In this document: positions 8,100 through 56,192 of the stretch, one piece after another
Layout of the letters: each line of letters starts with the position of its first letter
Numbering within the stretch: position 1 is the stretch's first letter
Assembly: GCA_021323165.1 (NCBI GenBank)
Contig: JAJTCJ010000017.1
Span: 1 to 64,000, forward strand
DNA length: 64,000 nucleotides
From: Bacteroidota bacterium
GTDB taxonomy: Bacteria > Bacteroidota > Bacteroidia > 2-12-FULL-35-15
Direction: 5' to 3'
Translations under genes and position numbers: made by a program
The notes under the pieces: model-generated
What the model was told of the DNA's origin: nothing
What the model saw: the letters and a program-made list of their open reading frames with translations, nothing else
Database searches by the model: none

Positions 8100-8873
8100 T
8101 TATCTTGAACCATAACGGCCTTTGCCTCTTTTTACAGGCGCTTTGCCATCACGGTAATCATCCTGGTCTTCCCAACTTTGTCCTCGCTGCTGTCCATCCC
8201 TATGTCCGAAACCTTCAGTTTGGCCTGAACTCTGGTAACCACTGTTTCTGAATTCATGGTCATCCATCTCATCTTCATAACTATCTCTGTTATCATAACC
8301 TGAGCGGTTGTAACGATCCTGTTCATTCTGACTTGTATATGTTCCGCGTCTTCCTCCATCACTGTTAAAACGAAGATCTCTTGTTGCTCCGTTATAAACA
8401 TCTGCAACATAGTCATCAGGACCTATACCCGGATGTCTTTTATTACTACCACGATATTCTTCTGCTCCACGGCTTTCAGGATGCTCACCATACAAATTGC
8501 GTGAATTACGTCCTCCGCCTTGTCTTTCATTATGGTCGTTTCTATATTGACCCTCGGATGAAGAACCGTATTGACGTGAACGCATTTCATTCTCATAGGC
8601 TTTTCTTCCTTCGTAATATCCTCTTTCAAATTCTGACATTTGAGAAGACCTGCCGCCATCATTTCCATCAGAATTCTTTATTGAACCAGATCGCTGATTA
8701 GCTCTTGGCCAGTCGGATCCATTTTCCATTCTTAGATCATCTTCATCCTCACCCATATCAGTATTTTTACTGTTCGTTTTTTGTTTGCGTCCCAGCTGGT
8801 CTTTACCATTTCGTTTAAGGCTGGAACTGCCTGTCTTTGGCGATTGTGTGGCTTTGTCGGATTTGTTTTTCAT
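8100..8873 (-). CDS. Low-complexity hydrophilic R/G/S/N/D-rich protein, probably disordered
   Basis: 257 aa, no hydrophobic segment; own terminator. Confidence 0.65.
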   Translation of the reverse strand: MKNKSDKATQSPKTGSSSLKRNGKDQLGRKQKTNSKNTDMGEDEDDLRMENGSDWPRANQRSGSIKNSDGNDGGRSSQMSEFERGYYEGRKAYENEMRSRQYGSSSEGQYRNDHNERQGGGRNSRNLYGEHPESRGAEEYRGSNKRHPGIGPDDYVADVYNGATRDLRFNSDGGRRGTYTSQNEQDRYNRSGYDNRDSYEDEMDDHEFRNSGYQSSGQTEGFGHRDGQQRGQSWEDQDDYRDGKAPVKRGKGRYGSR

Positions 8874-43301: not shown

Positions 43302-43682
43302 ATGCCGTATCACCATTTACTACTTATTGATGACGATGATGATGATCAGGAGATCTTTCTAACCGCACTTGAAAAAGTATCAAAATCAGTAAAATGCACA
43401 ACATTCAATAATGCCAAGGAAGCTTTAGAAGCCCTCATAAATAAAGAAGTTGAGCCGGATGTTATTTTCCTTGATCTCAATATGCCTTTGATGAACGGAC
43501 AGCAATTCTTAATGGAAATAAAGAAAATCGATAGCCTCAAAAAGATCCCGGTGATCATTTTTTCAACTTCTTCTCATTCAGGAACCATTGAGCTTACAAA
43601 GGAACTTGGTGCTCACGATTTTATAACTAAGCCCGATAAGTTTGATGATCTTATTAATATACTGAAGCCTCTTATCAATTAA
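43302..43682 (+). CDS. Response regulator (receiver domain only)
   Basis: LLLIDDDDDDQEIF; VIFLDLNMPLMNGQQFL; VIIFSTSSHSG. Confidence 0.93.
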   Translation: MPYHHLLLIDDDDDDQEIFLTALEKVSKSVKCTTFNNAKEALEALINKEVEPDVIFLDLNMPLMNGQQFLMEIKKIDSLKKIPVIIFSTSSHSGTIELTKELGAHDFITKPDKFDDLINILKPLIN

Positions 43683-46177
43683 TGAGTACAATACTAATTC
43701 ATTTGGAAAAAGAAATTACTAAAACCAAGCATCAATTCCTCCAGGGTGGCGGAGAGATGGGAGAATTAACCAGGGAATACGACTGGGCTAATACACCGAT
43801 CGGAGAGCCCGACAAATGGCCACAAAGTTTACGGACAACTGTCGCCATGATACTGAATTCTAAATTCCCCATGTTCCTGTGGTGGGGAGAAGATCTGATC
43901 CAGTTTTATAATGATGCTTACCGACCGAGCCTTGGTAATGAAGGTAAGCATCCGACAGCATTAGGACAAAAAGGAAAAGACTGCTGGCCTGAGATCTGGG
44001 CTGTTATTTATCCACTGATCAAGCAGGTAAGAGAAACAGGAGAAGCAACCTGGAGTGAAGATCAGCTTATCCCCATCTATCGAAACGGAAAATTAGAAGA
44101 TGTTTACTGGACCTTTGGTTACAGTCCGATCAGAGGTGAAACCGAAGAAATAGAAGGAGTTCTGGTAGTGTGTAATGAAACTACTGAGAAAGTTCAGAAC
44201 AATCAAAAGCTTGAACAATCAGAAAAGCGTTTTCAAAATCTCATCAGGGAAGCAACCGTTGGAATTGTTGTCTTAACAGGTCAAGACATGGTCGTGGAGG
44301 TTGTTAATGAATCATACGGAAAGCTGATCGACAGAAAACCAGAAGAGCTGATAGGAAAAAAGCTCTTTGAAATTATCCCGGAAACCGGACCATATTTTAG
44401 GAAAATGATGGAAGGAGTCAGGGATACCGGAAAACCTGTATTCTTATATGATCATCCGTATTTTGTGTATTCAAAAGGAGAAAAGATCGAAGGGTATTTG
44501 AACATCATTTATCAGCCATACCGTGAAGAAGATGGAAGAACAACCGGAGTAATGGCTTTATGTCATGATGTTACGGAGCAGGTTCTCTCAAAGAACAGAT
44601 TACAGATAAGTGAAGAACGGACAAAAAGCCTTGTAGAAAGTGCACCATTTCCTATAGGTGTATATATCGGAAAAGATATGGTGATCGAACTTGCTAATCA
44701 GGCGATTCTTGATGTGTGGGGAAAAGGGAATGATGTTATTGGCAAAAAATATTCTGATATTCTTCCGGAACTTGAAAATCAGAAGATCTTTGATCAGCTG
44801 GAAAGTGTTTATACAACCGGAATGCCTTTTCATGCAAAGAACCAGCGAGTGGATCTAGTCGTAGATAATAAAATGCGGATCTATTATTTCAATTACAGCT
44901 TCACACCTCTTTACAACAGTCATGGAGATATCTATGGCGTAATGAATACTGCTGCCGATGTTACTGACCTTGTTAAAATAAAAACTCAGCTGGAAAAAAG
45001 TGAAGATAATTTAAAGAACACCATTCTGCAGGCACCAGTTGCTATGTGTCGTTTACGTGGGGCCAATCACCTTGTTGAGATCGCAAACATACGAATGCTG
45101 GAGCTGTGGGGAAAAACAGGAGAAGAGATCATTAACAAGCCTTTGTTTGAAGGGTTGCCCGAAGCCAAGGATCAGGGCTTTGAAGCTATGCTTGATAATG
45201 TTTATCAGAACGGAGCAACCGAGATAGCGCAGGCTGTCCCGGTTACCTTACCCCGTAACGGGACCCTTGAGGTAGTTTATGTAAACTTTGTTTACGAAGC
45301 TTATCATGAACCTGATGGAAGCGTTTCTGGGATCATGGTTGTGGCTTCCGATGTAACAGCCCAGGTAATAGCAAAAAATAAAATTGAAGAAGTTGTTGCG
45401 AAACGCACAAAAGAACTTGCTGACACTAACAGTGATCTTCAGCGTTCGAATGCGGAGCTTGCTCAGTTTGCATATATCGCCTCACATGACCTTCAGGAAC
45501 CTTTGAGAAAGATAAGCACTTATACGCAAATGCTTGAGAATCAGCTTGAGAATATTGATGACAAATCAAGAAACTATTTTAATAAGATCACAAGTGCTTC
45601 CTCAAGGATGAATAAACTTATCCGTGATGTACTTACCTATTCTGAACTGGTAAGGGAAAACGATGTGTTTGAAAAAGTAGATCTTAATAAAATTGCAGAT
45701 GCAATCACTAACGATTTCGAGTTATTGATTGAGCAAAAGCAGGCTGTGATAAAATATCATGATCTTCCTGTGATTGAGGCAATACCATTACAGATGTCTC
45801 AGCTCTTCAGTAATATGCTTTCAAATGCGCTGAAGTTTTCCAAACCCGGTGTAAAGCCAGTTATTACTATCTCATCAAAACAATTATCTTCCAATGAAGT
45901 TAAACTGATTCCTGATCTCGACCCTAAAAAATTATATTATAAAATAGTGTTTAAGGATAATGGAATTGGATTTCGCTCGGAACACGGAGAGCAGATCTTT
46001 AATATCTTTCAGCGCCTTCATCGCAAATCCGAATATGAAGGAACAGGTATAGGATTAGCTATGTGTAAAAAGATTGCAAAGAATCACAATGGCGATGTTA
46101 ATGCTGATGGAACATCCGACAAAGGGGCAATATTCAACATTATCCTGCCGGCAACACATGTTTCGATTAAAAAGTAA
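43682..46177 (+). CDS. Multi-PAS sensor histidine kinase
   Basis: Repeated PAS; FAYIASHDLQEPLRKISTYTQML (H-box); FKDNGIGFRSEHGEQIFNIFQRLHRKSEYEGTGIGLAMCKKI; overlaps preceding stop by 1 nt. Confidence 0.93.
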   Translation: MSTILIHLEKEITKTKHQFLQGGGEMGELTREYDWANTPIGEPDKWPQSLRTTVAMILNSKFPMFLWWGEDLIQFYNDAYRPSLGNEGKHPTALGQKGKDCWPEIWAVIYPLIKQVRETGEATWSEDQLIPIYRNGKLEDVYWTFGYSPIRGETEEIEGVLVVCNETTEKVQNNQKLEQSEKRFQNLIREATVGIVVLTGQDMVVEVVNESYGKLIDRKPEELIGKKLFEIIPETGPYFRKMMEGVRDTGKPVFLYDHPYFVYSKGEKIEGYLNIIYQPYREEDGRTTGVMALCHDVTEQVLSKNRLQISEERTKSLVESAPFPIGVYIGKDMVIELANQAILDVWGKGNDVIGKKYSDILPELENQKIFDQLESVYTTGMPFHAKNQRVDLVVDNKMRIYYFNYSFTPLYNSHGDIYGVMNTAADVTDLVKIKTQLEKSEDNLKNTILQAPVAMCRLRGANHLVEIANIRMLELWGKTGEEIINKPLFEGLPEAKDQGFEAMLDNVYQNGATEIAQAVPVTLPRNGTLEVVYVNFVYEAYHEPDGSVSGIMVVASDVTAQVIAKNKIEEVVAKRTKELADTNSDLQRSNAELAQFAYIASHDLQEPLRKISTYTQMLENQLENIDDKSRNYFNKITSASSRMNKLIRDVLTYSELVRENDVFEKVDLNKIADAITNDFELLIEQKQAVIKYHDLPVIEAIPLQMSQLFSNMLSNALKFSKPGVKPVITISSKQLSSNEVKLIPDLDPKKLYYKIVFKDNGIGFRSEHGEQIFNIFQRLHRKSEYEGTGIGLAMCKKIAKNHNGDVNADGTSDKGAIFNIILPATHVSIKK

Positions 46178-46216: not shown

Positions 46217-48553
46217 TTATTTCAGTTCTTCAATTTCCATTTTGAGAGGATCTTTAACCTCATTATAACATTTTTCTATCTCATTATATTTGAGACGTAT
46301 CTCCTCTATAGGATATTTATTATCTGCCAAACGCTCCACCTGCTTGATTATATCACCAGTTTCTTCAATACCCAAAGTAAGAAATAAGCCCTTCATACTA
46401 TGCGCGTATATTTTAATATCCCCATAATTTTTCTGATCTATTGAGGACTTTAGTTTTGTAAGTGCCTGCGGAACATCATTAATAAACAAGGTGATCATTT
46501 CAATGATAAATTCCTTATCACCATCAGCATGATCGATGAGGTAATCAAGATTAAATAAAGGCTTCCCTTTAGATACATTTTTAACAACCACTTTTTCAGG
46601 TTTGCCGGACTTATTCATTAGCTGCATGATCACTTTTTTTAAGTAGTTTGCATTAAAGGGTTTTGACACATATGCATTCATCCCGATATTGATACATCTC
46701 TCAGCCTCAGAATTGGACGCATGCGCAGTAATAGCAATTATCGGAATGTTCTTTTTACGATAATCCTTCATGTCCCTGATAATACGAGTGGCAGTATAAC
46801 CATCTATTTCAGGCATCTGAATATCCATCAGTATAAGATCATAATCCTTCTCTTTTAATTTTTCTATCGCTTCTGCTCCATTGTTAGCAATATCAAGTTT
46901 ATACTTCCACTTGGCCATTATCTTCTGAACAAGCCTTTGATTCAAAGGAATGTCCTCTGCAAGCAGAACTGAATATGATTCATTACTATCTGAAGTTACA
47001 CCAACATTTTTCGTTATATCCACGCTTGGTTTTTCGGTGGTCTTCTTAAATCGCATAATAAAGTTAAAAGTAGAACCTACTCCTTCTTTGCTTTCTACTT
47101 CTATCTTTCCGCCTTGAAGTTCTACCAATTGCTGAACAATTGTCAAACCCAAACCAGTACCACCATATTTCCTTGTTGTATCTGAAGAGCCCTGCGTAAA
47201 TCTTTCAAATATCAATTTGATCTTTTCAGGAGGAATTCCAATGCCTGTATCTTTAATACTGAACTTATATTTAATATCAAGCCCGGTATCTTCCAAAACT
47301 TCTGTACTGATGCTCACCTCACCTTTTTCTGTGAACTTGATGGCGTTACCAATAAGGTTCAGGAGTATCTGACTTAATCTTGCTGAATCACCCATTAAAT
47401 ATTCAGGAGATGCCGGATCTATTTTAATACTGATCTGAATATCTTTTTCCTGAGCTCTGTGTTCAACCAATTCAACAACTGATCTAATAATTTCAGTCAC
47501 ACTGAAACTCGCTTCTTCAAAAATAAATTTTCCTGCTTCTATTTTAGAAAGATCAAGTATATCATTAATGATTACGAGCAAGTTTTTACCAGCAAAATCA
47601 ATAGATTCAACATATTCTCTTTGCTCAGGATTCAATTGTGTTTCTTTAAGAAGCTCCTGAAAACCAAGGATCGCATTTAAAGGAGTGCGGATCTCATGGC
47701 TCATACTTGCCAGGAATTGTTCTTTTACGGTTTTAGATTCTTCGGCTATTTTTTTAGCAGCGATAAGCTTTGCATTTTTTTCAACGAGTTCCTGGGTTCT
47801 TTCTTTAACTCTTAATTCAAGCTGATTATTAGTTTCAGATAATGTATGATCATGTTTTTCAATCTTCTCAATCATTTTATTAAAGGCCATAGAAAGTTTC
47901 GCTACTTCATCCTTTCCTTTAAAACGGGAACGCAGACTGAAATTCCCGCTTTTCATTACATCTTCCATTACATTAACCAGATCAATGATTGGAGTTGAAA
48001 TATATTTCTGTAAGAAATATGCAAGGAAGTAAGCTAATAATCCGCCTATAAAAATGATCAGTAGCGCGAGTTTCATTTTTTTATAAAGCTGTGCTTGAAT
48101 ATCTGAAAGATCAACCTTCAGGCATACTGTACCAAGCCACTCCTTATTACTGAATATTTTATAATAAACGAACAGATCATTTCCACTTGTATGAGAGAAC
48201 ATGTTCATTTTAGGTACATACGAAAATGTAAACGGGTCTGCCTGTTTGCGCGTAAATGCAGCGAATACTTTCCCTGTAGTGTCAATAATACTGGCGTTGG
48301 TTATTGTTGATTCAACATTAAGATCGGTAAGTGTTTCATAAGCAGTTTCTGTATCACCAAAAAGGATTGGAGCTACTGTATTTGAACCAATAACCTGTGC
48401 AATGGAAGAACTTGATTTGATCTTATTCTCACGCATTGCCTTATAATCGATGACCACAAATGTAAGGGAACATAAAACGATCACTACCACAGCAGTGGTA
48501 AGCTGCATTAAGATCAGCTTACGGTGAATCGATATATTAGTTAACAATCCCAT
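46217..48553 (-). CDS. Hybrid sensor kinase: CHASE8-like periplasmic domain, HAMP, HisKA/HATPase, receiver, HPt
   Basis: N-term IAQVIGSNTVAPILFGDTETAYETLTDLNVESTITNASIID; SMSHEIRTPLNAILGFQELL; LILMDIQMPEIDGY; IYAHSMKGLFLTLG. Confidence 0.92.
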   Translation of the reverse strand: MGLLTNISIHRKLILMQLTTAVVVIVLCSLTFVVIDYKAMRENKIKSSSSIAQVIGSNTVAPILFGDTETAYETLTDLNVESTITNASIIDTTGKVFAAFTRKQADPFTFSYVPKMNMFSHTSGNDLFVYYKIFSNKEWLGTVCLKVDLSDIQAQLYKKMKLALLIIFIGGLLAYFLAYFLQKYISTPIIDLVNVMEDVMKSGNFSLRSRFKGKDEVAKLSMAFNKMIEKIEKHDHTLSETNNQLELRVKERTQELVEKNAKLIAAKKIAEESKTVKEQFLASMSHEIRTPLNAILGFQELLKETQLNPEQREYVESIDFAGKNLLVIINDILDLSKIEAGKFIFEEASFSVTEIIRSVVELVEHRAQEKDIQISIKIDPASPEYLMGDSARLSQILLNLIGNAIKFTEKGEVSISTEVLEDTGLDIKYKFSIKDTGIGIPPEKIKLIFERFTQGSSDTTRKYGGTGLGLTIVQQLVELQGGKIEVESKEGVGSTFNFIMRFKKTTEKPSVDITKNVGVTSDSNESYSVLLAEDIPLNQRLVQKIMAKWKYKLDIANNGAEAIEKLKEKDYDLILMDIQMPEIDGYTATRIIRDMKDYRKKNIPIIAITAHASNSEAERCINIGMNAYVSKPFNANYLKKVIMQLMNKSGKPEKVVVKNVSKGKPLFNLDYLIDHADGDKEFIIEMITLFINDVPQALTKLKSSIDQKNYGDIKIYAHSMKGLFLTLGIEETGDIIKQVERLADNKYPIEEIRLKYNEIEKCYNEVKDPLKMEIEELK

Positions 48554-49092
48554 TAATTTTTAATATTCAATGCTAATTTTAATAGCTGAGAACTCGCCTT
48601 AATATTGTTTCTGTTGAGTGAATTAAGATTCACTTCAAATTTTATCTTGTTATTTACAATAAGGAAGTTGATCGCGGATCCTAAGTCCAGATCACCTTTT
48701 TGTTCGCTTACAATAAGTGCATTCTTTATAGAAGGGGCTTGTAAAGACCTCTTAATGTGTTCAGGAGAAATATGTTCAGGAATAAATAGCATATGACAGG
48801 TTTTAATATCTCCTGCATCACTGTATTTAGTTATGTTGATCTTCTTATTGTTGATCTTTTTATTTGCTGCCAGATCATTTAAAGGGCTGACTATTGGCGA
48901 ATCACCTAAAACACAAATATTGAAAGTTGAAGCATTGTTCAATGAATTATCTTCCCACTCTACAAATTTCGTAAAATTGTACATGAAGGCTGCCTTTGCC
49001 TGATACTCTTCAACCTCTGTTTGAATCATCACAAAGGATGAACCTAACAGGAGTAATAGAAACATAAATAAGCAACAGGCTTTTCTTTTCAT
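48553..49092 (-). CDS. YfiR/DUF4154-family periplasmic protein
   Basis: EYQAKAAFMYNFTKFVEWED...FNICVLGDSPIVSPLNDLA...CHMLFIPEH; 1-nt overlap with kinase start. Confidence 0.85.
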   Translation of the reverse strand: MKRKACCLFMFLLLLLGSSFVMIQTEVEEYQAKAAFMYNFTKFVEWEDNSLNNASTFNICVLGDSPIVSPLNDLAANKKINNKKINITKYSDAGDIKTCHMLFIPEHISPEHIKRSLQAPSIKNALIVSEQKGDLDLGSAINFLIVNNKIKFEVNLNSLNRNNIKASSQLLKLALNIKN

Positions 49093-49132
49093 AAACTGGA
49101 ATTGAGAAAATAATTCTTAATTTCTCTGTTTG

Positions 49133-49885
49133 TTATTGAAACTTTATTCGATTTTCGATTAAAGGAGTAACAGGAGTATTTAATATTATATATTCTTTAA
49201 TTGCATTTGATTGATTCTCCTGAAGATTTTCTTTCATTGAAGATGAAATATTCTTAAGAGTAACATAACCATCATTTCCATCGGCAATGAAGGCAGGAAA
49301 CGCCACAGTATAAACTGTATTCGAATCAAGCATAGCCTCCTGGATCTTAACAGATGTAATTCGGTTGCCCGGACTTATTATTACAGTTCCTTCTATATTA
49401 ATGACCTGAGGTGACTGATTAGTATCGATAGTAATTTCAAGTTCTTTTGAGAGTTGCAGAAAGGGTCCTTTGGTTAATGGATATTGTGCAACAGAGCGTT
49501 CAAATACCGATTTAAGATCTTTGCCATTCAGTTTGATCAAAACTGTAGGATCCCCGAATGGAAGCATTTCATCAATCATTTCAGCAGTAATAATTCCACT
49601 CGGATAAATTCCATTTGGTCTTTTTGAAGCGCTGTAACGGATACTTCCCGCATTTACCACAGCACAATCAATTAACTTTCCTTTACTAACCACATTATTA
49701 AAAATAGCATCACATATAAGGTTTCCGATCACAGATTCTTTTTTCCTGATTACATTTTCCCTGGCATCCATATCCACAGTAACCGTTCCCAATGCTGTAG
49801 GTTCAGGTAAGTGCTCATCTTTACGGCAGGCATCCGCCAATAACAGAAGTAAAATGAAACTTGAAATTTTCAGAACTGTTTTCAT
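49133..49885 (-). CDS. Lipoprotein consisting of a stand-alone 5'-nucleotidase C-terminal domain
   Basis: Lipobox LADAC; ESVIGNLICDAIFNN, CAVVNAGSIRYS, ITAEMIDEMLPFGDPTVLIKLNGKDLKSVFE; no metallophosphatase domain. Confidence 0.8.
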   Translation of the reverse strand: MKTVLKISSFILLLLLADACRKDEHLPEPTALGTVTVDMDARENVIRKKESVIGNLICDAIFNNVVSKGKLIDCAVVNAGSIRYSASKRPNGIYPSGIITAEMIDEMLPFGDPTVLIKLNGKDLKSVFERSVAQYPLTKGPFLQLSKELEITIDTNQSPQVINIEGTVIISPGNRITSVKIQEAMLDSNTVYTVAFPAFIADGNDGYVTLKNISSSMKENLQENQSNAIKEYIILNTPVTPLIENRIKFQ

Positions 49886-49890
49886 TTTCC

Positions 49891-52023
49891 TTATAATTTA
49901 TAAATTACATTCAGCAGTAATGAAGGCCCGGGCTGAATAAGTCCCTTTAATCCAAATGCATTGATATTTGTGGATTCTTCAGGATCACTGTATTTTTGTG
50001 TCCCAAGATTATTTCCAATAATATTGATATTTAAATGCTTATTAACACTATACCCTAAGGTGATATTTCCCTGTAAATAATAAGGGATACGAACATAGTG
50101 ATCGGTTTCCAGATAAAAGCGTTTATTATTTTCGGCTTCGTTACCATAGTTAATTCCAATAGCTATGAATACTTTTTTTATTGTGTAATCAAATCCTCCG
50201 TTTAATTTTAAGGTTGGGACATTCCTAAGCTCTTTGTAATAATCCGGCTGCTTATCATAAAACGCAACATCAGATGCTCTTACATTATTTTCATTCCACT
50301 TGAACGTACTTAAGAACTGAGAATAATTTGCAAAAACATGGAATTCAGGTGCAAGAGCTAGTGTAATTGTTCCCCCATTTCCGTAAGTTTCGACATCCCC
50401 GATATTCTCGTATATACCAATACTTCCTCCCCCATGTGGATCATAAACTCTTATTAAATTTCTATTCTGAATGTAATACAGGTTGTATTTTATCTGCAGC
50501 TTTTTATAATTGATCACTGTACCTATTTCGACTGTATTAATATCTTCAGGAGTGAGCTTAGTATTGCCTTTTACCCCATACTCATTGCCAATTGTTGAAT
50601 TATCATATAACTCCTGGAATGAAGGTGCCCGGAATGCTTTTCCGTATAAACCTTTAAAATGAATATGCTGGGTAGCTTTATAAGTAATGCCCAAACGCGG
50701 GTTAACAGACTGACCAAAATCATTATAGTCATCATATCTCAATCCTGCTGTTACTGTAAATTTCTTTATACGGAAATTAGTTTGAAGGAAATATGCAAAA
50801 ACGAATCTTCTTTTTTTATCCTGAGTAAATTCAATATTATCATAATTATTAAAAGCTCCTTGATATTCATCTCCCACAATTTTATAATTACGTGACAGAT
50901 CATATTTCGCCAGAGAAAGATCTTCGAACACGCTGCCTGTTAAGATATCAAAATGTTCATTGGCTTTAATGTAAATATCAAGAGAACTTCCGTAGGTCAC
51001 TCCAGTGTATTTTTCTCGTGTAAGCTTACCATCTGGAAAGAGATCTCCTGAAGTAGCTGATACATAATTATCAGGTGCCTCCTGATTAAGAAAATCATGC
51101 GTATTTGAATTATAATAAAGTTTAGGAGTTATTATAACATTATCGCCAATCCTGTAGTCATAAAAAATATTTGCTGCAAGCTGATTGGTAATTAATTTGG
51201 AATCAGGTGACGCAATAAAAACCGGACCGACCCAACTCCCTTGCTGCCTGTAAATATTAAATAAATTAAAGTGCAGATTATTAGAAACTAAATTACAATT
51301 TACATATCCATCCTTATTCCAACGGTTAGTTCTATAATTTTTATCCATGTAAGTTAAGCTCCATTCCTGATCTTTTACTTTATCACTTTCGATCAGTTGT
51401 GAGTTACCATCGCTCTGATAATATCCTAGTGAAAGATCAAGTTTAACTTTCTCGTTTTGAACAGTATAATTTGCGTTTGCATTTAGTGTCGAATTCAATC
51501 CACCGGTAACGCTAACGGAGGTCTGACTTATAGTAAAGATGTTTATTACGCCAGCCATTGCGTTACTTCCGTAAATTGCAGATCCGGGTCCACGGATAAT
51601 TTCGACTTTCTCTATAAAATCTAATGGAAGATCATAAATAGCCCTTCCATTATAAAAATCATTTATCTGTTGGCCATTTATCAAAACCAATATATTACCA
51701 TCTTTGCGGCCTCCGCGTAAAGAAATCCGATATTGTCCATCTGTTCCCATACTCGTTTCGATTCCCGGGATAAATTTCAAGAGATCAATAAGTGTGATCG
51801 CTCCAAAATTCTTAAAATCGGAATGTTCAATAACAGAAATAATTGCGGGTGCTTCTGTTTCTAATTGTGGTTTTTTAGCCGCGCTGAATACTTTCAACTC
51901 TAGAAGTTCTTCAAGAGAAAGGTCAGCGATATCACCGTTCTTTCCCGTTGAATCATTTTGGGAAAATGAAATCAGAGGAAAAAAGAGTATTATGACAAAA
52001 AGTATTGTGTTTCTATTAACCAT
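49891..52023 (-). CDS. TonB-dependent receptor
   Basis: Signal peptide; DLSLEELLELKV; plug VEIIRGPGSAIYGSNAMAGVINI; C-term barrel. Confidence 0.92.
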   Translation of the reverse strand: MVNRNTILFVIILFFPLISFSQNDSTGKNGDIADLSLEELLELKVFSAAKKPQLETEAPAIISVIEHSDFKNFGAITLIDLLKFIPGIETSMGTDGQYRISLRGGRKDGNILVLINGQQINDFYNGRAIYDLPLDFIEKVEIIRGPGSAIYGSNAMAGVINIFTISQTSVSVTGGLNSTLNANANYTVQNEKVKLDLSLGYYQSDGNSQLIESDKVKDQEWSLTYMDKNYRTNRWNKDGYVNCNLVSNNLHFNLFNIYRQQGSWVGPVFIASPDSKLITNQLAANIFYDYRIGDNVIITPKLYYNSNTHDFLNQEAPDNYVSATSGDLFPDGKLTREKYTGVTYGSSLDIYIKANEHFDILTGSVFEDLSLAKYDLSRNYKIVGDEYQGAFNNYDNIEFTQDKKRRFVFAYFLQTNFRIKKFTVTAGLRYDDYNDFGQSVNPRLGITYKATQHIHFKGLYGKAFRAPSFQELYDNSTIGNEYGVKGNTKLTPEDINTVEIGTVINYKKLQIKYNLYYIQNRNLIRVYDPHGGGSIGIYENIGDVETYGNGGTITLALAPEFHVFANYSQFLSTFKWNENNVRASDVAFYDKQPDYYKELRNVPTLKLNGGFDYTIKKVFIAIGINYGNEAENNKRFYLETDHYVRIPYYLQGNITLGYSVNKHLNINIIGNNLGTQKYSDPEESTNINAFGLKGLIQPGPSLLLNVIYKL

Positions 52024-52298
52024 AAATTAAAAACGACTAACTAGTCAAATTTATAGATAAATCGACTCTCGCGCAACAAAAACTTTAATATGTTTATAAT
52101 CTGGAAAAAAGGGAAAATATATCCCCGACCAGTACTTACATATAAGTTCTAATAAGAAATCTCGGAAACCGGCTTCTGACAATATACTCGATAAGAGACA
52201 AATGTAATTTTCTTCATTGGCAGATTATTTTACCGGGATTCTCGATCAGCTATTAAAACTCCCTGGATAGCATATTATTAAACTATAATTTTCTATGC

Positions 52299-53948
52299 AT
52301 GAAAAAAAGCTACTTTGTTTTTATAATCAGTTTTGTATACTGTAACTGTTTTGCCCAGGATTTTCTATGGTCAAAAGTCGAAGGAAAATATGCTTACGAT
52401 TACGGTTATGGTATCGCTACAGACAATTCAGGGAACGTTTATGTGACCGGTAAGTATGAAGAGCTTGCAGATTTTAGCGGAACCATCTTACCAAATCAGG
52501 GTAACCATGATATTTACCTTGCTCAATATTCCCCTTCTGGAAATTTAAACTGGATAAGGACCGGTGGAAGTTATACCGGTGACTATGCCCGTATTCTTGC
52601 CTGCGATAAAACAAGTCATGTATATATAGCAGGGGAAATAGAAGGAGTTAATTCTACCATAGTATTTCCGGGCTCTTCCATAACAATTACCGGACATGGT
52701 GAAAATGATGTGTTTGTCGCTTCGTACGATCTTAATGGAAATTTATTATGGGCCAGAAGTGAAGGTGGAATTTATAATGAAAAAGCTTTGGGTGTTGCCT
52801 ATGATATGTTGGGAAATGTAATAATATGTGGATTTTTCAATGACACAACCAACTTTGGAGGAACTACATATGTAGGAAATGGAGGCAAAGATCTTTTTGT
52901 TGCGAAATATGATTCTAATGGAAATCTTTTGTGGATGAAACACGCTGGAGGTCCTGGGGAAGAAGAGGCAAAATCTGTAGTATGTGATGATGATGGAAAT
53001 ATTTACATCTGCGGCAAATATTCAGATGGAGTAATTTTCGGAGATGATGATTATTCAACAGCAGTAACTCAATACGGACAATTCTTTAATGGATATGTCG
53101 CAAAATACTCATCTGATGGGACCTTTCTATGGATGAAAAATATAGATGGTGATTATGACGATATTGCTTGGTCAATAACAAAGGATAACAATCATAGAAT
53201 TTATGTAACCGGGGAGTTCAGCGGTGCGGTATTCGATTCTCTTACATTATATACCTATGGGAAAGCTGATGTATTTGTTGCATGTTATGATGAAGAAGGC
53301 GTTATTCAGTGGGCGGTGCACGGAGGAGAATTACTTGCTGACAGAGCAAGAGGCATTGGTACTGATGGAGACAAGATTTTCATTACCGGTCAGTTTGCCG
53401 GAACTGCCGTGTTTGGTGATCATACAATTTCTGCAATTGACAGTTCAGATATTTTTGTGGCCGGACTCGACAATACAGGTCAATTCCTATGGGCAAGATC
53501 TGTTGGTGGAATAGCTGACTCTTATGAGCCTGATGGTTATGAATCCGGAATTGCAGTGTGCGGTGACACATCCGGGGTAGTATATTTCACAGGAGCGTTA
53601 TTAAATGGCGGTGTCTTCGGAAATACAAGTCACTACGGATATACAAGAACGGATGTTTTTATATCAAAATTATCTACTGTTGTTGGCCTTGACGAGAGAG
53701 TAAACAATAAGAATCAACTCTTGATCTATCCTAACCCCGGAACCGGAATATTCAAAATCTCCACAAATCAGATCAAAGGACATGACACGGAAGTTAGTGT
53801 ATATAATTACCTGGGAGAACTTGTTAAACCGGCAGATATTACAAACTCTGAAATGCATATCGACCTTTCAGATCAGCCAAAAGGAATTTACTTTGTTCAT
53901 GTTAATTCAGGGAATAATTCATTCATTGAAAAGATCATCCTGAATTAA
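52299..53948 (+). CDS. SBBP-like repeat protein with T9SS sorting domain
   Basis: Repeats 'A.D..GN.YV.G.F....FG'; C-term LLIYPNPGTGIFKISTN...GIYFVHVNSG. Confidence 0.85.
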   Translation: MKKSYFVFIISFVYCNCFAQDFLWSKVEGKYAYDYGYGIATDNSGNVYVTGKYEELADFSGTILPNQGNHDIYLAQYSPSGNLNWIRTGGSYTGDYARILACDKTSHVYIAGEIEGVNSTIVFPGSSITITGHGENDVFVASYDLNGNLLWARSEGGIYNEKALGVAYDMLGNVIICGFFNDTTNFGGTTYVGNGGKDLFVAKYDSNGNLLWMKHAGGPGEEEAKSVVCDDDGNIYICGKYSDGVIFGDDDYSTAVTQYGQFFNGYVAKYSSDGTFLWMKNIDGDYDDIAWSITKDNNHRIYVTGEFSGAVFDSLTLYTYGKADVFVACYDEEGVIQWAVHGGELLADRARGIGTDGDKIFITGQFAGTAVFGDHTISAIDSSDIFVAGLDNTGQFLWARSVGGIADSYEPDGYESGIAVCGDTSGVVYFTGALLNGGVFGNTSHYGYTRTDVFISKLSTVVGLDERVNNKNQLLIYPNPGTGIFKISTNQIKGHDTEVSVYNYLGELVKPADITNSEMHIDLSDQPKGIYFVHVNSGNNSFIEKIILN

Positions 53949-53987: not shown

Positions 53988-56192
53988 TTAAAGTGAATAT
54001 CTCACATTTAAATAAAAACTTCTTCCCCTGGTTCTGAATCCGTTGATCTCAGAGTATTTCTCATCAAGCACATTTGCAACTCTGAGGCCTGCGCTTAAAC
54101 CTTTCCAGATCTTAACATTTGCAGACAGATCAAGAAGTGTATATTGTTTTACATTTACAGTTCCCAATGCACCATATGGTCCCAGAGCCGGATCATAAAC
54201 AACATCACCGCGTCCTCCGACATAACGAACATCTGCTCTAAGCATGAGTATAGTTATTGGGCGATATGTTAAAGAAATGTTAGCTGTGTTCGGCCTGCGT
54301 GATAATCCTAAAACCTCTATATCCTTATCATTGATGAAAGAACCATTGCTGTATATCTGAACATGGTTTCCTCCTGTCTGAGCCGTATCAATATTTTCTT
54401 TAGTATATTTTAATTTACCGCTTGTTAAACTTAGGTTTGCCGATACCGTAATCTTTCCAGAGATCTTACTGCTGATCCCCAACTCCACTCCTTCAGTGGT
54501 CATGGAAGCAGCATTAATATATGTATCACCGCGGTAATCATCTCTTCCCCAGTTTTGTCCTAATGTATCCGTTCCAATATTTTTATCCCAGAGATAAACA
54601 TATTCAATTACATTTTCAACAACTGTTTTATAATATGCGGCAGAAAGCTCAATATTATTTATTCTTTGTTTAAATCCCACTTCAAATGTTTTAGAAGTTT
54701 CCGGGTTCAGTTTTTTATTCCCTCTGTTCAAACCTGTTGAAGGTTGTCCATCCCATGGCTTATATGCAGTAGGATCATACAACTGATAAAGAGAAGGAGC
54801 ATTATAACCCGTGGAATAAGTCATGTAAAGCAACGCTGTTTCTGTGATCTTAAAAGACGGATTAATCTCGTATGTTATATTACTTCCAAATATACTGTGA
54901 TCACTGTATCTCAACCCTCCGGATAAATTCAGCCAATTATATTTATCATTGATCAACTCCCCTCCGATATCAGCATGCATAAATATGCTTCCTGTAGTAG
55001 ATTTCGGATCAACAGAATCAACGGATGTTTTTATTTCTTCGTAACCAGCCGGAAAACTCCACATATTGTAATAATAAAGGCTTGTATTTATTCTCATTGA
55101 TTCAGAATACACACCACCGCCAACAACAGCACTCAGACCTTTGATCTTGTAATTGGCCTGGAGCTCTTCGCTTTCTAATTTCCCTTTGTAAGTATTCTTG
55201 ACATATTGTCTGTCATTATCCCCATTGCTATTGATACGGGATGAATCATCTATCGCGATCCTTTTCATATCCGACATCCCGCCAATATATGAAACGCTTA
55301 ATTTCTCATTCACTTTATATGATGCACCAAAAGTGAACAGATTTCTTTTAAAGTCTAATGTATAATTATCATCATCACGATAAGCCCCTTTATCTATTTC
55401 GGTGAATTGATTCGTTTGTTTGAATGAAGCATATACATCAATTTTTTTATTATTAAAACCTGCTTTAACAAGCCAGTCAAGCTTATCAAAATCATCGCTC
55501 ATATCGGAATGTTTATAGGCTGTAGTGCTTTTGACAGTATCTTCTGTCGCATTCATGCCTTGAACATTGGTATTATAAAGCTCAGCAGAAACATACAGTC
55601 CGTTCTTTAAAGCATAATTCAGATATACATTTTCTGAGATCTCTGAAGTATTGTTACCGAAAGTACCTCCCAAAATAGATACATCTGCTGAAAGACCCGC
55701 CTTCTCAGACTTTTTAGTAATGATATTTATCACTCCCCCGATAGCTGCTGACCCATATAAAGTGCTGTGGGAACCTCTTACAATTTCAATTTTCGAAATA
55801 TTAGCAAGAGATAGTTCTGAAACATCAATCGCATTATTAATTGCGGAAGGATCGGTGATACGCACACCGTCAATTAAAATAACAGTTTGATTACTGTTGG
55901 CCCCACGTGTAAATATACTGGAGGTTAGACCCGGATTCTGACCTGCTCCAACAGCATACATTCCTTCCTGCACTGTTAGTAATTCGGCAACAGACGTTGC
56001 ACCGGATCTTTTAATCTCTTCAGAAGTGATTACACTAATACTTCTGCCAACATCATTGGGATCTTGTTCACTTCGTGTTGCTGTAATAACAACTTCCTTT
56101 AATTCTTTTTTCTTTAATGAATCCTGAGCGGATACACTCATTGATAAACACAGAAAGGTGCTTACCGCAATAAAACATTTTTCCTTTTTCAT
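53988..56192 (-). CDS. TonB-dependent receptor, probable cobalamin uptake (BtuB-like)
   Basis: Plug IEIVRGSHSTLYGSAAIGGVINI; preceded by cobalamin riboswitch. Confidence 0.9.
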   Translation of the reverse strand: MKKEKCFIAVSTFLCLSMSVSAQDSLKKKELKEVVITATRSEQDPNDVGRSISVITSEEIKRSGATSVAELLTVQEGMYAVGAGQNPGLTSSIFTRGANSNQTVILIDGVRITDPSAINNAIDVSELSLANISKIEIVRGSHSTLYGSAAIGGVINIITKKSEKAGLSADVSILGGTFGNNTSEISENVYLNYALKNGLYVSAELYNTNVQGMNATEDTVKSTTAYKHSDMSDDFDKLDWLVKAGFNNKKIDVYASFKQTNQFTEIDKGAYRDDDNYTLDFKRNLFTFGASYKVNEKLSVSYIGGMSDMKRIAIDDSSRINSNGDNDRQYVKNTYKGKLESEELQANYKIKGLSAVVGGGVYSESMRINTSLYYYNMWSFPAGYEEIKTSVDSVDPKSTTGSIFMHADIGGELINDKYNWLNLSGGLRYSDHSIFGSNITYEINPSFKITETALLYMTYSTGYNAPSLYQLYDPTAYKPWDGQPSTGLNRGNKKLNPETSKTFEVGFKQRINNIELSAAYYKTVVENVIEYVYLWDKNIGTDTLGQNWGRDDYRGDTYINAASMTTEGVELGISSKISGKITVSANLSLTSGKLKYTKENIDTAQTGGNHVQIYSNGSFINDKDIEVLGLSRRPNTANISLTYRPITILMLRADVRYVGGRGDVVYDPALGPYGALGTVNVKQYTLLDLSANVKIWKGLSAGLRVANVLDEKYSEINGFRTRGRSFYLNVRYSL

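Follow-up and report, generated by a model that had tools for sequence, protein, structure and literature searches.

A TonB-dependent receptor, YfiR and a CHASE8 hybrid kinase as a candidate outer-membrane-to-cytoplasm signaling operon in a Bacteroidota bacterium

Contig JAJTCJ010000017.1 of a Bacteroidota bacterium carries, within the 64,000-nucleotide stretch of DNA that we analyzed (hereafter the window), four adjacent minus-strand genes for a TonB-dependent receptor (TBDR), a lipoprotein made of a 5'-nucleotidase C-terminal domain (N5C), a periplasmic YfiR protein and a hybrid histidine kinase with a CHASE8 sensor. Our analysis of these sequences suggests, at a probability that we put at roughly 0.55, that they constitute an outer-membrane-to-cytoplasm signaling operon in which the receptor would control YfiR and YfiR would control the kinase. 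The trio of outer-membrane protein, YfiR and CHASE8 kinase is widespread across bacterial phyla and seems little studied. We infer the passage of ligand state from receptor to YfiR from co-occurrence, gene order, a segment shared by the receptors and natural fusions; the direct contacts, the sign of regulation, the ligand and the role of N5C are inferred as well. New here are the N5C variant of the cluster, the receptor segment and its test, the exchange of OmpA-type protein and TBDR on the YfiR tree, and a YfiR-kinase fusion.

Results

Conservation of the trio

When 295 Bacteroidia genomes were searched with only the kinase sensor as query, 25 loci in 21 genomes were returned. YfiR lies directly upstream of the CHASE8 kinase in 17 of these loci, and the gene preceding YfiR encodes an outer-membrane protein in all 17: a TBDR in 12, and in 5 a protein with an OmpA domain (that of L041, the only one scanned against Pfam, also has TPR and PD40 repeats). 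As the query was the kinase sensor alone, the conservation of the trio is not a product of query choice. The remaining eight loci comprise one truncated at a contig edge (L171), one that is rearranged (L174) and others that have no adjacent YfiR. N5C follows the TBDR in 3 of the 12 TBDR-type loci. Co-occurrence of the four genes in related genomes had been set beforehand as a test by the first-pass annotation of the window; the trio co-occurs, whereas the four-gene form with N5C is rare.

A second sample, in which named genomes were scanned with a YfiR alignment, gave 80 loci from Bacteroidota, Acidobacteriota, Nitrospirota, Desulfobacterota, Gammaproteobacteria, Armatimonadota, Verrucomicrobiota, Neomarinimicrobiota and others. 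All fetched loci together contain 77 YfiR-CHASE8 pairs, mostly with fewer than 20 bases between YfiR and the sensor gene; in 58 pairs a TBDR stands directly upstream, in 4 it is N5C, itself preceded by a TBDR, and in 5 it is an OmpA-type protein. These proportions are no census, as the loci were selected for their resemblance to such YfiRs. On the YfiR tree the OmpA-type rows group in a single supported clade next to the TBDR rows (support 98), which implies that TBDR and OmpA (the YfiB fold) fill the same slot. Some distant members have a GGDEF motif on the CHASE8 protein or a REC-GGDEF regulator adjoining the kinase (called by motif only). One cluster (L140:1040-12634) combines two YfiR genes, three TBDR genes, a CHASE8 hybrid kinase and a REC-GGDEF regulator.

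Candidate contact sites of YfiR and the CHASE8 sensor

Profile searches bear out the YfiR and the CHASE8-like sensor that the first-pass annotation had proposed: YfiR matches Pfam DUF4154 (YfiR/HmsC-like) above cut-off (E=3e-40), and the kinase sensor scores 48.4 bits against CHASE8 (cut-off 27). YfiR also passes NCBIfam NF053591 (126.3 against a cut-off of 125; 127.1 for the trimmed domain) and fails the sequestering-YfiR equivalog NF053586 (44 of 85 bits). Its AlphaFold model (pLDDT 94) matches YfiR crystal structures with a TM score of about 0.7, and that of the sensor (pLDDT 94) has a Cache/PAS-like fold.

Malone et al. 2012 (PMC3375315) located the binding of YfiR and YfiN at the AAVVF motif in the periplasmic domain of YfiN and, on YfiR itself, at hydrophobic residues near the C-terminus. 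The window YfiR keeps the equivalents of I160, F162, E163 and L183 of the YfiN-contact patch. On the sensor side, CHASE8 was detected in 63 of 63 sensors from YfiR loci, and the single column that is invariant in all 63 is Phe65 of the window kinase (in APILF), which matches the Phe of AAVVF. The second disulfide of Pseudomonas YfiR, Cys145-Cys152, is absent, with Asp/Asn at both positions; the Cys71-Cys110 equivalents remain. Another YfiR of the same genome, with a lipoprotein-like N-terminus, adjoins an HWE/HisKA_2-like kinase without evident membrane helix (L035:7901-9806).

A segment shared by YfiR-linked receptors

The window receptor matches only Plug and barrel models in Pfam, above curated cut-offs; it has no STN domain in Pfam, and neither FecR nor FecI-type sigma factor genes are found among its neighbors. 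It fails both NF053590, the NCBIfam model of the TOL_0244 TBDR (135 bits against a cut-off of 645), and the SusC/RagA signature TIGR04057 (17.3 against 46.2 bits). A ligand assignment from the receptor sequence was dropped, as heme, B12 and siderophore models all scored far under their cut-offs.

Between signal peptide and plug, YfiR-linked TBDRs have a segment in common, LSLEELMNIEVTSVSK. With half of the receptors as training set, a profile applied to the held-out half (cross-validated) recovers the segment in 60 of 62 linked TBDRs, with 28-30 bits for the window receptor, and in none of the 19 further TBDRs that the window's genome encodes. This profile replaced earlier regular expressions, which were too strict (27/63 and 31/63 receptors). 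Contig ends truncate the N-termini of at least two linked receptors, L093 and L100. The segment is a candidate contact for YfiR, TonB or both, and its final part would, by position, be equivalent to a TonB box. A further TBDR of the window (53988-56192) is closest to B12/heme receptor models, below cut-off, and does not have the LSLEEL segment.

Natural fusions and other contexts of YfiR

YfiR relatives occur in 115 of the 295 Bacteroidia genomes. In L239 (7192-10407), a single open reading frame, starting where a TBDR gene ends, encodes YfiR, a coiled coil, one membrane helix, PAS-PAS-GAF and a histidine kinase; in four others (L159:450-2831, L160:4933-6813, L161:5237-7111 and L162:4398-6320), a coiled coil and a membrane helix lie between YfiR and a SpoIIE-type phosphatase. 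The existence of such proteins indicates that YfiR is an input unit for membrane signaling proteins besides cyclases. An apparent TBDR-YfiR-sensor-kinase frame in L131 is no fusion, as it crosses a stretch of unknown bases. The commonest context of YfiR in the fetched Bacteroidia loci is a set of YfiR, a TPR protein and a HAMP-SpoIIE phosphatase (L046:8451-11684 and about 35 similar loci), a YfiR-to-phosphatase system for which we know of no described counterpart.

Output of the kinase

The receiver and HPt domains that had been read in the kinase are confirmed: HAMP, HisKA, HATPase_c, Response_reg and Hpt all score above Pfam curated cut-offs, and the phospho-acceptors H286, D577 and H718 are all present. 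The layout HisKA-HATPase-REC-HPt with intact His, Asp and His is that of BarA-like hybrid kinases; the BarA equivalog cut-off is not reached (461 of 890 bits), nor is that of the NCBIfam kinase sensor NF053592 (163 against 194). No second CHASE8 protein was found in the genome, and a search of the assembly, which is about 90% complete, found no GGDEF protein, with 8 of 14 control genomes positive. An output by c-di-GMP is therefore unlikely, which agrees with the phosphorelay that had been suggested in its place.

The N5C lipoprotein

N5C matches Pfam 5_nucleotid_C (PF02872; E=5e-30) as the sole model above cut-off. It corresponds to the C-terminal, substrate-binding half of 5'-nucleotidases, with CD73 and UshA as relatives; a metallophosphatase domain was found neither in N5C nor in the adjoining genes, and a split nucleotidase pair sits elsewhere in the genome (L178). 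Orthologues occur in 3 of 395 genomes of the class, all three in this cluster, and as a tandem pair in L079. In L047 the N5C gene (8100-8769) has a decayed C-terminal end, and TBDR, YfiR and kinase there are intact. Its rarity, its decay in L047 and the trios elsewhere that do without it mark N5C as a lineage-specific accessory. The annotation that placed receptor and lipoprotein together in the role of YfiB thus holds for the receptor, which occupies the YfiB position, but not for N5C as a general substitute.

By alignment, N5C keeps the equivalents of the CD73 substrate-site residues R354, N390, R395, F417, F500 and D506 as R47, N78, R83, F110, F199 and D205. Those other than N390 are known to hold ribose, phosphate and adenine (PMC7508162). 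Other N5C copies carry substitutions, with Leu for F417 in L040 and Ile for N390 in L047. The surface-export signal of Bacteroidota is C-X-K-(D/E)2 (PMC5080379); the window N5C reads CRKDE from its probable lipid Cys and fits this signal, whereas the other copies do not.

Operon layout and neighboring genes

The four open reading frames lie where they had been annotated and are as tightly packed as was claimed (Table 1): 5 nt separate the TBDR stop from the N5C start, and the YfiR stop and the kinase start overlap by one base in TAATG; the gap from N5C to YfiR is 40 nt. The Bacteroidota promoter pattern occurs four times in the window, against 4.4 expected by chance, and the position of the site at the receptor gene is apt. 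The upstream region of the receptor gene is shared with a divergent gene (52299-53948), whose product combines SBBP beta-propeller repeats with a type IX secretion sorting domain. Overlapping genes for a receiver-only protein and a four-PAS histidine kinase (43302-46177) are convergent with that of the CHASE8 kinase and may encode a phosphorelay partner for it.

Table 1. Features of the operon, in coordinates of the window
Feature	Position	Strand	Basis
TBDR, 710 aa: signal peptide, Plug and barrel, no STN signaling domain	49891..52023	minus	Pfam
Receptor segment LSLEELLELKVFSAAK, residues 35-50, directly N-terminal of plug	51874..51921	minus	Held-out profile
N5C lipoprotein, 250 aa: 5'-nucleotidase C-terminal domain, no catalytic metallophosphatase domain	49133..49885	minus	Pfam
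Probable lipidated Cys20 of N5C, followed by RKDE	49814..49828	minus	Sequence compared with signal defined in PMC5080379
YfiR/DUF4154 periplasmic protein, 179 aa	48553..49092	minus	Pfam, NCBIfam NF053591, AlphaFold
Hybrid histidine kinase, 778 aa: TM-CHASE8-TM-HAMP-HisKA-HATPase-REC-HPt	46217..48553	minus	Pfam
CHASE8 periplasmic sensor domain, kinase residues 46-145	48119..48418	minus	Pfam, 1.2e-12
APILF, kinase residues 61-65, counterpart of YfiN AAVVF	48359..48373	minus	Motif from PMC3375315
Promoter-like TTTG-N23-TAnnTTTG site upstream of receptor gene	52046..52080	minus	Pattern match

Discussion

Our results suggest a path from the outer membrane to the cytoplasm. Periplasmic YfiR would bind the CHASE8 domain of the kinase around Phe65 and hold the kinase in one state, which by analogy with YfiN would be the off state; the TBDR would stand in for YfiB and display to the periplasm, through the N-terminal segment LSLEELLELKVFSAAK, whether ligand is bound or TonB engaged; the state of the receptor would either remove YfiR from the kinase or deliver YfiR to it; and the kinase would start a phosphorelay, His286-Asp577-His718, directed at a response regulator whose gene lies elsewhere. 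A more specific version is tentative, and we regard it as rather less likely than not: the LSLEELMN-type segment, in the N-terminal periplasmic part of the TBDR, would dock YfiR, and the receptor would directly capture or free YfiR according to its ligand or TonB state. N5C probably acts beside the receptor as a lineage-specific accessory and may bind nucleotide-like ligands.

Several observations weigh against this proposal: the class Bacteroidia contains several CHASE8 kinases without a neighboring YfiR; the association of the receptor segment with YfiR, though strong, is not exclusive, with the TBDRs of L229, L237 and L240 having the segment and no adjoining YfiR, and those of L230, L231 and L234 adjoining YfiR and giving no strong match to the segment profile; fusions of the L239 type do without CHASE8, so YfiR can work through another contact; and, as the assembly is about 90% complete, the absence of GGDEF is no proof.

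Among the alternatives, the strongest is that YfiR itself is the ligand sensor, in the manner of LuxP: the receptor would be a transporter only, importing a ligand that YfiR binds, and YfiR would then switch the CHASE8 kinase, which regulates uptake genes. The next matches of the YfiR model after YfiR structures are indeed substrate-binding proteins (8wgl, 6k1x, 3lkv and 3lft; E 5e-5 to 6e-3), the CHASE8 model is like Cache-type sensor domains, and TBDR and YfiR are neighbors within one operon. However, an OmpA-type protein, which is no nutrient receptor, substitutes for the TBDR in five loci; a common N-terminal segment is unexpected in a mere transporter, unless it is just the TonB contact; and in Pseudomonas the control of YfiR works through protein sequestration (PMC3375315, PMC4655355). 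On balance we consider this alternative rather improbable.

It is somewhat less probable still, and compatible with receptor control of YfiR, that receptor and N5C form a nucleotide-capturing pair at the cell surface with a SusC/SusD-like role, through which extracellular nucleotides or nucleosides are sensed. The retained equivalents of the CD73 substrate site, the CRKDE export signal and the confinement of the N5C subfamily to this cluster are consistent with such a pair; the substitutions in L040 and L047, the decayed C-terminus of the latter, the missing export signal in other copies, the absence of N5C from most clusters and a receptor that is not SusC (17 of 46 bits) argue against it. 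Quite unlikely is a third explanation, in which the kinase receives from YfiR a signal of redox or envelope stress and has receptor and lipoprotein simply as co-expressed targets: YfiBNR has been regarded as a reporter of envelope stress (PMC3375315) and tight packing fits plain co-regulation, but an outer-membrane protein gene of either the TBDR or the OmpA class precedes YfiR in 17 of 17 loci found with the sensor alone, and the window YfiR keeps the Cys71-Cys110 equivalents alone, without the structural Cys145-Cys152 pair.

The proposed receptor-YfiR-kinase system has clear relatives. With YfiBNR (of P. aeruginosa, with AwsXRO and TpbB, and DgcN/YfiN of E. coli) it shares a periplasmic YfiR, a TM-CHASE8-TM-HAMP protein with an AAVVF-type site and an outer-membrane partner encoded alongside; it differs in the output (a hybrid kinase with REC and HPt instead of the GGDEF of YfiN), in the outer-membrane partner (a TBDR plus N5C instead of the OmpA/Pal-like lipoprotein YfiB, OmpA-type partners being found only at other loci) and in the lack of the Cys145-Cys152 disulfide. 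The NCBIfam trio NF053590 (TOL_0244 TBDR), NF053591 (TOL_0243 YfiR-like) and NF053592 (kinase sensor) has the same order and partners, and the same order of TBDR, YfiR and CHASE8 recurs at L043, L085, L143, L149 and L155, whose TBDRs pass NF053590; in the window YfiR passes its model, whereas TBDR and kinase sensor stay below cut-off and N5C is extra. In terms of layout LuxP-LuxQ is similar as well, pairing a periplasmic protein of substrate-binding-like fold with a hybrid kinase that has a PAS-like periplasmic domain. LuxPQ, however, has no outer-membrane receptor, and YfiR is not a known ligand binder.

The first-pass annotation was right to pair YfiR with a CHASE8 kinase in place of a YfiN-type cyclase, but such a partner is not new in kind, as the YfiR/YfiN sensor module has been reported with kinase, HPt, GGDEF-EAL and MCP outputs (Malone et al. 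2012, PMC3375315) and NCBIfam curates all three partners. The divergent Yfi modules of that study also include YfiR with PAS/HAMP joined to a kinase, without YfiB; its main text does not mention TonB receptors and N5C is not described, whereas the window operon has both. No description of TBDR-YfiR-kinase operons or of the LSLEELM segment was found in the open-access literature, most subscription journals lying outside the search.

The input to YfiR systems is a long-standing question, and the likely input partner here is a TBDR in most lineages sampled; the question can now be reduced to one segment, one Phe and one fusion. FecA-FecR-FecI likewise signals across the envelope from an outer-membrane receptor, as proposed here; however, the window receptor has no STN domain and no FecR or sigma factor gene alongside, and the relay would be YfiR and the receiver a histidine kinase. 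Should our proposal hold, envelope signaling by TonB receptors would have a second general route besides STN-FecR-sigma factor, across many phyla, and this route would operate also in bacteria that seemingly do not synthesize c-di-GMP.

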